Origin: Albidovulum sediminis
Lineage (GTDB): Bacteria; Pseudomonadota; Alphaproteobacteria; Rhodobacterales; Rhodobacteraceae
Reading direction: 5' to 3'
Assembly: GCF_025380365.1 (NCBI RefSeq)
Contig: NZ_JAOCQF010000001.1
Span: 1,848,245 to 1,912,244 of the forward strand
DNA: 64,000 nt
Below the pieces are notes generated by a model, which was not told the origin of the DNA, did no database searches, and saw nothing but the letters and a program-made list of their open reading frames with translations. The position numbers were made by a program, and so were the translations under genes. Shown here in pieces: positions 38,270 through 42,136 of this stretch. Positions within the stretch are counted from its first letter, which is position 1. Every line of letters starts with the position of its first letter.

Positions 38270-38299
38270 GGAACGGCACCGGAAATCCGGCGCCGTTCC
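38270..38299 (+). terminator. Stem-loop after thrS
   Basis: A 13-bp stem (38270-38282 with 38287-38299) with one G-T pair and an AAAT loop, nine bases past the thrS stop. It lacks a following U-tract, so it may act with Rho or protect the 3' end. Confidence 0.6.
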
Positions 38300-38452
38300 G
38301 TGACCCGCGCCGCAATCCGTCCCTTCGCGGATTGTTACGGCCGCTCACAGCGGCGTGGCCCACGGCTTCGTGACTTTCCAGTGACGCAAGCGGCTGGCTA
38401 GAACAGTGCTGTCGATACCAAACGACGCCAACCATTCTCAAAAGGATTGACC

Positions 38453-38746
38453 ATGTCGCACTCCATGAAGACCCTTGCCATCGCAAGCTCGCTGGCCGCC
38501 GCGCTCACCGCGCATTTCGCGGCCCCGGCTGCTGCCCAGGAAAACGAAAAGTGCTTCGGTGTCTCGCTGGCCGGTCAGAACGACTGCGCCGCTGGCCCGG
38601 GCACGACCTGCGCCGGCACGTCGAAGGTCGACTACCAGGGCAACGCCTGGAAGATGGTGCCCGCCGGCACCTGCACCACGATGGAACTGCCGGACGGCCG
38701 CATGGGCTCGCTCGAGGCGCTTGATCGCGACCTGCCGCAGGGCTGA
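38453..38746 (+). CDS. bufA1: Bufferin-type precursor peptide (DUF2282)
   Basis: A 97-residue precursor with a Sec signal peptide of about 28 residues and a small secreted core. The core carries four cysteines (C34, C45, C53, C74) in the DUF2282 pattern: [23 protein letters not shown], then [15 protein letters not shown]. In bufferins these cysteines are modified by a DUF692 (MNIO) enzyme, described as yielding thiooxazole-type groups that bind copper; the peptides help cells cope with metal stress. The next genes are the enzyme, its DUF2063 partner and a DoxX protein, the standard set. The ATG is chosen with AAAGGA upstream; the TTG at 38447 is less likely. Confidence 0.88.
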
Positions 38747-38757
38747 TGATCCCTTCG

Positions 38758-38780
38758 TCCCCCCGCGGATCGCGGGGGGA
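38758..38780 (+). promoter_or_regulatory. Intercistronic perfect hairpin between bufA1 and bufB1
   Basis: A perfect 10-bp stem (38758-38767 with 38771-38780) with a GAT loop, in the 57-base gap between precursor and enzyme. It has no U-tract. Such a hairpin can stabilise the upstream part of a message and lower the expression of the downstream enzyme relative to the peptide. Confidence 0.6.
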
Positions 38781-38803
38781 CATCCTGACCGATAGGCGCT
38801 GCA

Positions 38804-39658
38804 ATGCTTGACCGTTCCGCCAGCCAAGGTTTGCCGCCCTTGCCGGGCGTCGGCTACAAGGCCCAGCACTTTTCCAACATCATGGATGGCGCAGGCCCGG
38901 TCGCATGGCTGGAAATCCATGCAGAAAACTACATGGGCGATGGCGGCCGCCCACTGGCGCAGTTGCGCCACCTGGCAGAGCGATTCCCGATTTCCGTGCA
39001 CGGCGTGGGCCTGTCGATCGGCGGCGAAGGCCGTCTTGACCGCAGCCACCTGTCGCGGCTGAAACACCTTGTCGGCTGGCTCGACCCTGCAAGCTTTTCC
39101 GAACACCTGGCCTGGTCGACCCACGGGGCGGAGTTCCTCAACGATCTTCTTCCGCTGCCCTACACCGAACGGACGCTTGCCCGCGTCATCGACCACATCG
39201 ACGAGGTGCAGGAAACCGTCGGCTGCCGGATGCTGCTGGAAAACCCGTCCGTCTACGTCTCGTTCGCCGAGACTAACCTTGGCGAGATCGAGTTCCTCAC
39301 CGAAATCGCGCGCCGCACCGGATGCGGGCTCCTGCTGGATGTGAACAACGTCTTCGTTTCCTGCACCAACCGGCGGACCGACCCGCAGGACTACATCGAC
39401 AGCTTCCCGCACCGGCTTGTCGGCGAGATTCACCTTGGCGGCCATGACGAGGACAGCGACGACACCGGGCAGCCGCTCCTGATCGACGCGCATGGGTCGG
39501 CCGTCGTCGATCCCGTCTGGCAACTCTATGCCCGCGCGATCGCGGTGGGCGGTGCGAAGCCCACGCTGATCGAATGGGATAACGACGTGCCCGAATGGCC
39601 GGTCCTGGCTGCGGAGGCTGCCCGCGCGGCCCGCATTCTCGACAGGGTCCCGGCATGA
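38804..39658 (+). CDS. bufB1: MNIO-family (DUF692) peptide-modifying iron enzyme
   Basis: A 284-residue TIM-barrel enzyme of the multinuclear non-heme iron oxidative family, related to MbnB of methanobactin synthesis. Likely iron ligands and active-site residues visible are H66 (SVHGVG), E100/H101 (SEHLAW), E146/N147 (LENPS), D179/N181 (LLDVNN), H210 and H214 (EIHLGGH), D228/H230 (IDAHG) and E257/D259 (IEWDND). In bufferin operons this enzyme modifies the cysteines of the precursor. It follows the precursor after a hairpin and overlaps the DUF2063 gene by four bases, as in other bufABC operons. Confidence 0.9.
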   Translation: MLDRSASQGLPPLPGVGYKAQHFSNIMDGAGPVAWLEIHAENYMGDGGRPLAQLRHLAERFPISVHGVGLSIGGEGRLDRSHLSRLKHLVGWLDPASFSEHLAWSTHGAEFLNDLLPLPYTERTLARVIDHIDEVQETVGCRMLLENPSVYVSFAETNLGEIEFLTEIARRTGCGLLLDVNNVFVSCTNRRTDPQDYIDSFPHRLVGEIHLGGHDEDSDDTGQPLLIDAHGSAVVDPVWQLYARAIAVGGAKPTLIEWDNDVPEWPVLAAEAARAARILDRVPA

Positions 39659-40383
39659 GCCAGGGCGATTTTCGCGCCGCCTTGCTGGACCCGGACCTGC
39701 CGGTTCCGGCCGGCATCACCGACCCGGAGGGTCGGCCGGCGCCCAGGCGCTTCAACGTCTACCGCAACAACGTCACCGTCTCCCTCACCGAGGCGCTGCG
39801 CCAGGCCTTTCCGGTCGTTCGCGCGCTTGTCGGCGAAGACTTCTTCACCGCCATGGCACGGGTGCATCTGCGCGCCCATCCCCCGCGCTCCCCGCTCCTG
39901 ATGCTCTACGGCGAGGATATGCCGGCGTTCCTCGAGGCGTTCGAACCCGTTCGCCACCTTGGCTACCTGCCCGATGTGGCGCGGCTGGAACTGGCGCTGC
40001 GCCGCTCCTATCACGCCGCCGATGCCGACCCGGTCCGTCCCGAGGCGCTTCAGTCGCTTCCTCCCGAGCGGTTTCTGGCCAGCCGCATCGCCTTCGCACC
40101 CGCTGCGCGGCTCTTGCGGTCGCGCTGGCCGGTGGCGACCATCTGGGCGGCCAACACCCGCGGCGGGCCACAACCCCGGGCTGCGGTGGCCGAGGATGTG
40201 CTGATCACGAGGGCCGGATACGACCCGGAACCCGCCCTTCTGCCAGCCGGGGCGGGGCCTTTCATCGCCGCGCTCATGAATGGCGAAAACCTGTCCGAGG
40301 CGCTTGAAAAGGCGCCGGAATTCGATCTGACCGCGACGCTCGGAATCCTGATTTCCGGCGGCGCCATCACTGGAATATCCTGA
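39655..40383 (+). CDS. bufC1: DUF2063 partner protein of the MNIO enzyme
   Basis: A 242-residue protein with the DUF2063 signature near the N-terminus (RRFNVYRNNVTVSLTEALRQAFPVVRALVG, abbreviated) and a helical remainder. DUF2063 members are coded next to DUF692 enzymes and act as partners that bring the precursor to the enzyme; the annotation putative DNA-binding is a fold-based guess. ATGA overlap with bufB1 supports a stable complex. No nucleic-acid-binding surface is evident to me. Confidence 0.85.
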   Translation: MSQGDFRAALLDPDLPVPAGITDPEGRPAPRRFNVYRNNVTVSLTEALRQAFPVVRALVGEDFFTAMARVHLRAHPPRSPLLMLYGEDMPAFLEAFEPVRHLGYLPDVARLELALRRSYHAADADPVRPEALQSLPPERFLASRIAFAPAARLLRSRWPVATIWAANTRGGPQPRAAVAEDVLITRAGYDPEPALLPAGAGPFIAALMNGENLSEALEKAPEFDLTATLGILISGGAITGIS

Positions 40384-40394
40384 GGAGTCTCCCC

Positions 40395-40949
40395 ATGAAC
40401 GCCCTTCTGGCCGCCTACGACGGCTTGACCCTTCGTCTTTCCCGCCTGTCCTCGGGCGCGCTGCCGACGCTGGCGCGTCTTGGCTTTGCCGGTGTGCTTC
40501 TCGTCTACTTCTGGAACTCGGCGCGCACCAAGCTGGGGGAGGGCATCTTCGGCTTCCTCTCCCCTTCGCCCAGTGCCTACATCCAGATCTTTCCGAAGGC
40601 GGCCGAAGCGGCGGGCTACGACGTAAGCCAGTTCGGGCTGTTCCACTATGCCGTGGTGGTGGCTGGTACGCTCGCCGAGGTGATCCTGCCGGCACTGATC
40701 ATCTTCGGGTTGTTCACCCGGCTTGCCGCGCTGGGAATGACCGGATTCGTGGTCGTCCAGAGCCTGACCGACGTCTACGGCCATGGTGTCGGCGGCGACG
40801 ACCTCGGCCGCTGGTTCGACGCGGCGTCGGACGCGCTCATCTTCGACCAGCGCGCCCTCTGGGTGCTGCTGTTCGCCGTCCTCTTCTTCCAGGGCGCGGG
40901 GCCGCTGTCGCTTGACCGGTGGCTCAGCCGCCGCCGTGGCGGGGCATGA
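40395..40949 (+). CDS. DoxX-family membrane protein of the bufferin operon
   Basis: A 184-residue inner-membrane protein with four predicted helices (about 22-42, 82-105, 108-125, 148-170) and DoxX character (LARLGFAGVLLVYFW, LAEVILPALIIFGLFTRLAALG). DoxX proteins often accompany bufABC. Their role may be in redox supply, membrane anchoring or export, but is not established. It starts 11 bases after the DUF2063 stop and ends the operon. The spacer that follows up to cspA holds no gene. Confidence 0.85.
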   Translation: MNALLAAYDGLTLRLSRLSSGALPTLARLGFAGVLLVYFWNSARTKLGEGIFGFLSPSPSAYIQIFPKAAEAAGYDVSQFGLFHYAVVVAGTLAEVILPALIIFGLFTRLAALGMTGFVVVQSLTDVYGHGVGGDDLGRWFDAASDALIFDQRALWVLLFAVLFFQGAGPLSLDRWLSRRRGGA

Positions 40950-41125
40950 CACTGGCGCTCTGTTCAAAATTCTTGATTTTTTGTGGAAATCGCTCATCCT
41001 TCGGGTCGCGTGACTGCAGACTTTCTACCGCTCCCTCGTTTCGGGGCAGCCGGACTGAGTGAAAGACCTGGCTGCACGATCCGGCCGCAATCTCGCGGGC
41101 GGAGAACACAACAGGGAGTTAACGG

Positions 41126-41332
41126 ATGGCCACCGGCACCGTGAAATGGTTCAACACGACGAAGGGCTATGGCTTCATCGCCCCCGACGATGGCGGGAAG
41201 GACATCTTCGTCCACATCTCCGCGGTCGAGCGGGCGGGGCTGAAGTCGCTGAACGACAACCAGAAGGTTTCCTACGAGCTTCAGTCGGGCCGCGACGGAC
41301 GGTCCTCGGCGTCGGACCTCAAACTGATCTGA
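41126..41332 (+). CDS. cspA: Cold-shock protein, CspA family
   Basis: A 68-residue single-stranded nucleic-acid-binding protein. RNP1 is KGYGFI and RNP2 is DIFVHISAV, both intact, and the KWFN start is typical. Family members act as RNA chaperones or transcription antiterminators. The 176-base gap upstream probably includes a long 5' leader, a usual feature of csp genes, but no specific cold-box was identified. A strong terminator follows. Confidence 0.95.
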
Positions 41333-41353
41333 GGCGCGCGAACGCCCTTGCGA

Positions 41354-41378
41354 CGGCCCGCACCCCGCGGGCCGTTTT
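41354..41378 (+). terminator. Intrinsic terminator of cspA
   Basis: An 8-bp perfect stem (41354-41361 with 41367-41374) with a CCCC-containing loop, followed by TTTT (41375-41378). It lies 21 bases past the cspA stop and touches the 3' end of the convergent gene. Confidence 0.8.
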
Positions 41379-41704
41379 CATTTGAGCACCCGCGCCCTGA
41401 CCGCGTCCGTCCAGCCAAGGATCAGCGCCCCGTCCACGTCGATCACCGGTCGCTTCATCAGCGTCGGATGCGCGGCCAGAAGGGCGGCGGGGCCAGCCGC
41501 GCGGGCGGTGTCGTCAAGCCCGCGCCAGGTGGTCGAGGCACGGTTGACAAGGCCATCGCCGAGGGCGGCAAGGAAGCGGGAAATATCTGCCGTATCAAGG
41601 GGTTCCGAACGAACGTCGCGGAAGGTGACGGGCCGGCCGGCGGCCGCTATTTCCTTCATCGCCTCGCGGCAGGTGTCGCAGGTGGGGATGCCGTAAAGGA
41701 TCAT
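41378..41704 (-). CDS. Arsenate-reductase-like (ArsC/Spx/YffB family) protein
   Basis: A 108-residue thioredoxin-fold protein with the CDTC motif at the N-terminus (YGIPTCDTCREA) and the RPV segment (LMKRPVIDVDGALILGW) that binds thiol partners. The branch with CxxC and no ArsC arginine cluster resembles YffB, a glutathione-dependent thiol reductase of unknown role. Arsenate reduction is possible but no ars operon is near. The start ATG at 41704 removes an unsupported 51-residue lead. Confidence 0.88.
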   Translation of the reverse strand: MILYGIPTCDTCREAMKEIAAAGRPVTFRDVRSEPLDTADISRFLAALGDGLVNRASTTWRGLDDTARAAGPAALLAAHPTLMKRPVIDVDGALILGWTDAVRARVLK

Positions 41705-41872
41705 GCGCAGGCTTTCGTCGTCATGGCGACGGCCATAGCAGCCGCCCCCCGGCCCGGCAAGCGCCGCCGAGCCGCAGCCTTTGTTCACGATCCCGTGATC
41801 GCGTGATCCGGACGGTCGCCCCGCCCGTAATCCACCTGTCGGACACAACGACGACATCCATAGGGGGTAGAC

Positions 41873-42136
41873 ATGAAGACGACATTCACGATCCTGACCG
41901 CGGGCCTTCTGGCCGTTGCCGCGCCGGCTTTCGCCGACAGCAACAAGGACGCGGCGCAGAACATGGCGGCGGCGCTGAAGGGCGGCGGCGGGGGCAACAA
42001 CTCCCCGATCAAGGACGCGCTGGGGCTCGAGGGCAATGGCGGCGTGGCCAGCTATGTCTCGGGCGGCGGCAATGGCGGCTGGGGCAACGTCGGCAGCGGT
42101 CTGGTGGGCGACCAGGTTTCCAAGCGCAACAAGTAA
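41873..42136 (+). CDS. Small glycine-rich exported protein
   Basis: An 87-residue protein with a Sec signal peptide (about 1-22, ending AFADS) and a low-complexity Gly/Asn-rich mature part (KGGGGGNN, SGGGNGGWGNVGSG). No family is recognised. It has its own ribosome-binding site (AGGGGG) and a perfect intrinsic terminator, so it is a single-gene unit and likely well expressed. Such small Gly-rich periplasmic proteins are sometimes surface or matrix components; that is a guess. Confidence 0.7.
   Translation: MKTTFTILTAGLLAVAAPAFADSNKDAAQNMAAALKGGGGGNNSPIKDALGLEGNGGVASYVSGGGNGGWGNVGSGLVGDQVSKRNK

Follow-up and report, generated by a model that had tools for sequence, protein, structure and literature searches.

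The window, by which we mean the whole stretch of 64,000 nucleotides of Albidovulum sediminis DNA that was analysed, contains at 38453-40949 a complete Buf1-type bufferin operon, as judged by the family, fold and residue tests that were run. A preliminary description had proposed a four-gene bufferin-type operon, and the DUF2282, MNIO, DUF2063 and DoxX genes indeed all scored over the curated Pfam cut-offs; the open-frame coordinates confirmed the tight spacing or ATGA overlap of the DUF2063 and DoxX genes, and Pfam matches confirmed thrS and the cold-shock gene cspA as the flanks (Table 1). Because the genes and their thrS neighbour are conserved in many relatives, a chance arrangement was ruled out. 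Among the NCBIfam models, the maturase passed the bufferin-maturase equivalog NF050167 (365.3 bits, cut-off 310) and the other three proteins had no model over its cut-off, the products of bufC and bufD scoring below those of HvfC (48.4 vs 142 bits) and HvfX (28.2 vs 80 bits), respectively. A further bufferin precursor or MNIO elsewhere in the genome was rejected, as the single PF05114 match and the single DUF2282 match both lie in this operon. The region of the cold-shock gene after bufD (40933-41380) also gave a sub-threshold match to the Rfam cspA thermoregulator (24.6 bits, gathering score 78, E 0.0014).

Table 1. Features of the bufABCD locus and the region upstream of it, in window coordinates
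Feature	Position	Strand	Description
Tandem CAC-N6-GTG palindromes, predicted CenR operator	38345-38373	+	Pair of dimer sites spaced 15 bp centre to centre
TGA-N8-TGA direct repeat overlapping the operator	38371-38385	+	Published CenR motif form; matrix rank 23 of 127,972 window positions
Predicted -35, weak match	about 38374-38379	+	Would directly abut the operator
Predicted -10, TAGAAC	38399-38404	+	TA at the conserved offset after the operator
Stem-loop GTCG-N8-CGAC	38411-38426	+	At the predicted transcript start; arm pairing sequence-specific
bufA	38453-38746	+	DUF2282 (Buf1) precursor; Pfam 90.7 bits, E 5.5e-26
bufB	38804-39658	+	MNIO bufferin maturase; Pfam MbnB_TglH_ChrH, E 2.6e-100
bufC	39655-40383	+	DUF2063 partner (PME type 1); ATGA overlap with bufB; Pfam 99.2 bits, E 1.7e-28
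bufD	40395-40949	+	DoxX-type helical membrane protein; Pfam 26.4 bits, cut-off 23.6, E 1.1e-5

Products of the operon and its distribution

The BufA precursor has the four cysteines (C34, C45, C53 and C74) and the 12-residue core that had been ascribed to it, and its N-terminus, judged by eye, is hydrophobic and ends in AAAQ, giving it the look of a Sec signal peptide. The earlier expectation of a thiooxazole at all four cysteines was given up, as it conflicts with published Buf1, in which the central cysteines are modified and the outer pair forms a disulphide (PMC12452194), and was amended to C45 and C53; the outer pair, C34 and C74, is accordingly expected to be joined by a disulphide. By analogy with homologues (PMC12452194), BufB and BufC would turn C45 and C53 into thiooxazoles in the cytoplasm, and the modified BufA would then leave via Sec and, like its Caulobacter homologue, buffer periplasmic copper. 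One relative (locus L137 of genome G007) has two bufA genes in succession ahead of a single bufB.

The structural comparison of BufB with known MNIO enzymes, which had been suggested as a check, was run on an AlphaFold model (mean pLDDT 84), of which the nine top PDB matches were all MNIO chains, with 3bww the best (TM 0.85 by target length). The fold matches 3bww, TglH and MbnB, to which BufB could be aligned, and its putative iron ligands align with those of the known enzymes and are nearly invariant in 109 rows. Invariant in all 109 rows, the window included, are H66, H101, E146, N147, D179, N181, N182, H210, D228, H230, E257 and D259; H214 is kept in 108, the single exception being Y. By local alignment, D259 appears to match FonB-D249, the alanine mutant of which leaves the peptide unmodified (PMC13097082). 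The model of BufD was helical, and a fold search gave no useful guide to its identity, with no PDB match at E <= 0.001; among 18 rows, D, E, H, R and Q positions were invariant and no cysteine was conserved.

The operon itself is a typical representative of a family already in print: the four-gene core with four-cysteine Buf1 precursors was described in a 2025 review (PMC12452194), and DUF2282 occurs in 211 of the 295 genomes sampled from the bacterial family. Its neighbourhood was compared in 111 loci, namely two from the window genome that overlap each other, 29 short ones from other genomes and the best 80 of 578 contig loci, with genes in GC-rich DNA called by codon score; longest-ORF calls were poor there. 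From the counts of thrS (88), cspA (70) and bufD (79) in this set, in which many loci are too short to reveal them, thrS-bufABCD-cspA is a common fixed arrangement. A second group of 16 longer stretches without thrS (L120-L135) lies elsewhere, and 13 of these have sigF-like and nrsF-like genes by tblastn (exceptions L130, L131 and L134). Such a pair also occurs at the window's own site, between thrS and bufA, in the congener G010 (L025, L136) and likewise in L036 and L053-L055, and beside bufA in L040, where thrS is absent from the contig part covered; Pfam confirmed the sigma-factor and NrsF domains in L136 and L036. NrsF matches were found in 45 of the 295 family genomes, 40 of them over cut-off; the window genome gave no NrsF match, and its operon is flanked by thrS and cspA. 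In L128, L129 and L130, bufD is followed by a CcdA-like and then a thioredoxin-like gene (names given by eye), after which L128 and L129 have sigF-like and nrsF-like genes.

A predicted tandem operator and promoter upstream of bufA

The preliminary description had noted no metal regulator beside the operon and had left its control blank. No such regulator is adjacent, as it had said, but the control is blank no longer, with a tandem CenR-type site at the promoter. The aligned bufA upstream regions gave the consensus TCAC-N5-YGTG-N3-CAC-N5-YGTGA, and an operator with at most two mismatches within 170 nt of bufA was found in 74 of the 108 usable regions, the window included, against 0.03 expected from dinucleotide shuffles, a proportion that is not unbiased because the best 80 of the 578 loci were chosen for the closeness of their BufB to that of the window. 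The window operator is perfect, and every other match in its genome has two mismatches or more. Across the non-redundant set of 58 tandem loci, the arms of the palindromes hardly vary and the spacers are free, and the TA of the -10 lies at offset 24 or 25 past the operator in 53. The end of the operator adjoins the predicted -35, and the operator therefore sits where an activator would. The palindrome was also considered as a thrS terminator and rejected; a terminator-like hairpin, found by eye, lies further upstream at about 38270-38299.

Of the remaining 34 of the 108 regions, 19 have a SigF-like promoter and the other 15 have neither type of site. The available DNA around the 74 tandem loci contained no sigF or nrsF match, and one or the other was matched near 16 of the 19 SigF-like loci and near one of the 15 neither-type loci; three tandem loci (L078, L097 and L104) also contain a SigF-like string. 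At one mismatch or fewer, 164 of the 295 family genomes had a tandem match somewhere, with few control hits, and such a match was present in nine of the 40 genomes with NrsF over cut-off compared with 155 of the 255 others. Thus, the tandem and NrsF systems mostly, but not strictly, exclude each other. G155 combines an NrsF-bearing contig with a second contig that has both a perfect tandem site and the DUF2282 match, so that both control systems can coexist in a genome.

A class-wide sample of 385 genomes contained tandem sites outside the family in three genomes besides that of the window, two of them within called coding frames, and tandem sites were rejected as a feature beyond the family; four other same-family genomes of this sample had none at the same strictness. 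A perfect single TCAC-N6-GTGA palindrome with the second-highest CenR matrix score in the window was also observed at 41785-41798, 75-88 bp upstream of the gene for a small, apparently secreted Gly-rich protein (41873-42136). As a conserved target it was rejected, since the matching region has the site in one of 73 loci.

CenR as the predicted regulator

A full-text literature search with the CAC-N6-GTG motif matched a single paper, on CenK-CenR of Sinorhizobium meliloti, where an AGTCAC-N6-GTGACT repeat lies immediately upstream of the -35 of a promoter that depends on CenKR, its centre 42 bp from the start, and where mutating this repeat lowers the activity of that promoter. ChIP-seq and RNA-seq of CenR in Rhodobacter sphaeroides defined 31 direct units, with 28 sites upstream of the -35, and CenR activates an msrA gene, dsbC, an L,D-transpeptidase and cenR itself; its sites include ACACGAGCGCGTGAG and TCACCTCCTCGTGAG (PMC9275681). 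In print the CenR motif has the form of a direct repeat; here it is given as a palindrome. A cenR-type gene was found in 27 of the 29 genomes searched, and CAC-N6-GTG lies upstream of it in 23 of the 27 (1.81 expected). The cenR of the window genome (G000:C14:250617-251270) encodes receiver and winged-helix domains and has Asp at 11-13, 51 and 56 as published, a comparison made by residue position.

With a matrix built from the 31 published R. sphaeroides sites (p = 1e-3 at a score of 6.67), the buf operator ranked 18th and 23rd of the 127,972 window positions, ranks that arise from the minus strand and the overlapping repeat, with 17 other window positions scoring higher. The CenR-type motif lies directly upstream of the promoter, with the palindromes scoring 6.15 and 6.11 on the plus strand, just below the p = 1e-3 line, and among the 74 tandem loci 62 distal and 50 proximal sites reached p < 1e-3. 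The sites upstream of cenR and msrA in the window genome are degenerate only.

A further 20 sites from the matches listed, mostly away from known bufA places, were inspected. These sites lie upstream of apparently secreted msrA in G286, G274 and G091 ("secreted" meaning a hydrophobic N-terminus judged by eye), of a DsbD-type gene in G233, of an L,D-transpeptidase gene in G112, and, in G154 (L142 3015-5223), of genes for a Met-rich repeat protein, a cytochrome b561 and a molybdopterin oxidoreductase; five are bufA loci or bufA-like, and several others look like chance. The G154 gene group resembles operons for defence against hypochlorite that encode MsrPQ together with a Met-rich peptide. A regulator gene adjoining the 20 sites was also sought, and none was convincing save an OmpR-type gene in L152, which is cenR-like. 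Upstream of msrA, the exact TCAC-N6-GTGA was present in 22 of 30 regions (0.14 expected), these being the top 30 loci from 98 matching genomes among 149 searched, with the discovery case G091 counted among the 22. One msrA without the site (L178) belongs to an NrsF-positive genome and has a SigF-like promoter instead. Furthermore, a search of 90 genomes for exact tandem sites at 15- or 16-bp spacing, which was not steered by any gene, yielded 14 sites, spread over 13 genomes, whereas the control gave none; six lie upstream of bufA (the window's included), seven upstream of msrA and one elsewhere, with three of the bufA and two of the msrA assignments made via neighbours or earlier gene matches.

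Taken together, the motif and its position suggest that the Buf1 bufferin operon bufABCD is probably activated by CenR, a response regulator of envelope stress, and that it shares this control with msrA. CenR would bind the tandem palindromes at 38345-38373, centred at about -44.5 and -59.5, and activate the bufA promoter, with transcription beginning near 38411 from the TAGAAC -10 promoter. It would join the bufferin and the apparently secreted MsrA in one envelope-stress regulon, and would stand in for the dedicated SigF/NrsF switch of other bufferin operons. The literature search gave no CenR-bufferin connection among the matches listed, and the CenR literature examined contained no link to copper as a metal signal. 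Bufferin genes are absent from the targets in Table 1 of the R. sphaeroides study (PMC9275681). The same source places its msrA product in the cytoplasm and gives it no signal peptide, and, given the secreted look of the one found here, the published msrA may be a paralogue of it.

That last point would also suit a different regulator, of the OmpR type or another dimeric kind and perhaps specific for copper or oxidants, acting through the shared CAC-N6-GTG motif, and so would the near-confinement of the doubled exact sites to bufA and msrA (13 of 14), which is narrower than the 31-unit CenR regulon. However, the single motif is present in the promoter of cenR itself in 23 of 27 genomes, and an L,D-transpeptidase gene, a published CenR target, is also among the tandem sites found; we regard such a regulator as unlikely. 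The palindrome could otherwise be incidental to an operon that is expressed constitutively or governed by an unlinked copper regulator, a reading in keeping with the lack of an adjacent regulator and with a cargo metal known from homologues only. The near-fixed distance that the site keeps from the -10 in different genera while its spacer bases vary freely, and the excess of 74 regions over the chance expectation, speak against it, and we consider it very improbable.

It is very improbable that the operon still depends on a sigma factor of the SigF type whose gene lies elsewhere. Relatives, one of them congeneric, do have sigF-nrsF at the same site, but the window genome lacks an NrsF match, no GTAAC-N16-CGAA promoter lies upstream of the window bufA, and the DNA available around the tandem loci matched neither gene.

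Promoter exchange and the proposed place of bufferins in CenR control

CenR-type sites are found in both promoter types, since in 18 of the 19 SigF-type bufA promoters a loose pattern places a CenR-type palindrome 4-6 bp ahead of the SigF -35. When a tree was built from the BufB proteins of 91 of the 109 rows (16 near-copies, mostly Ruegeria, were removed by hand and two by filters), SigF-type loci occupied several places, with one row within the close clade of the window, and the SigF-type label requires six changes. Promoters of the two types have replaced one another more than once. With these six changes, which fix no direction, a simple loss of sigF-nrsF in the window lineage was dropped as an account.

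The leader stem-loop recurs in relatives with differing arms (GTCG/CGAC, ATCG/CGAT, CGCC/GGCG and others). A four-pair stem was present in 42 of 55 tandem-type leaders, compared with a chimera mean of 23.2 and a maximum of 34 in 1000, and in 16 of 17 SigF-type leaders, compared with a mean of 10.1 and a maximum of 15.9. The mean folding z was -1.25 for tandem and -2.01 for SigF-type leaders, and -0.13 and 0.21 for the control windows. A known Rfam family was rejected for the leader, as nothing scored over the gathering score. A 5' stem can protect mRNA, and the simplest reading of the bufferin leader is an mRNA-protecting stem of this kind.

On balance, we lean towards a broader reading, in which the bufferin promoter of Rhodobacterales would be a swappable module at the thrS-buf-cspA site, where the operon is often found. 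In some genomes the module would be a SigF promoter together with its sigF-nrsF cassette, in others a housekeeping-type promoter behind a doubled CenR operator. As the palindromes close to the SigF -35 suggest, CenR would then be the input that stays constant and the sigma factor the one that varies; the bufferin and MsrA would form a conserved copper-and-oxidation arm of CenKR, and the mRNA would start with the conserved stem-loop.

What is new here is the predicted control, by way of the CenR-type operator; the type of operon is already known. The Buf1 cluster of Caulobacter vibrioides has the same four core genes, a four-cysteine DUF2282 precursor and an MNIO of the bufferin group (PMC12452194), but the Caulobacter clusters are driven by SigF/NrsF (PMC3511200, PMC8224329), whereas the promoter here has the CenR-type tandem site and the genome gave no NrsF match. 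The CenKR regulon of R. sphaeroides agrees in motif class, in the place of the site just upstream of the -35 and in having msrA as a member; it differs in that its Table 1 has no bufferin genes and its msrA is cytoplasmic, and the available part of the paper does not describe tandem palindromes 15-16 bp apart as found here (PMC9275681). In the ECF16 SigF-type regulons, genes for envelope oxidant repair (methionine repair) are likewise joined with bufferins in Caulobacter, although under a sigma factor and not a response regulator (PMC8315932), and, unlike in those regulons, SigF-type and CenR-type promoters alternate at one locus among the relatives of the window. In Cupriavidus metallidurans the gig operon, a bufferin cluster according to a review, is copper-induced with a periplasmic signal, but has a divergent ECF sigma factor gene beside it (PMC10304878).

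The earlier statement that control was unknown has become a testable prediction, namely that an essential envelope-stress system commands a copper-buffering peptide together with methionine repair. If this is true, CenKR, for which the literature examined gives no metal link, would be tied to copper or oxidant damage in the envelope, and one peptide operon would be shown to switch master regulators at a fixed chromosomal place.
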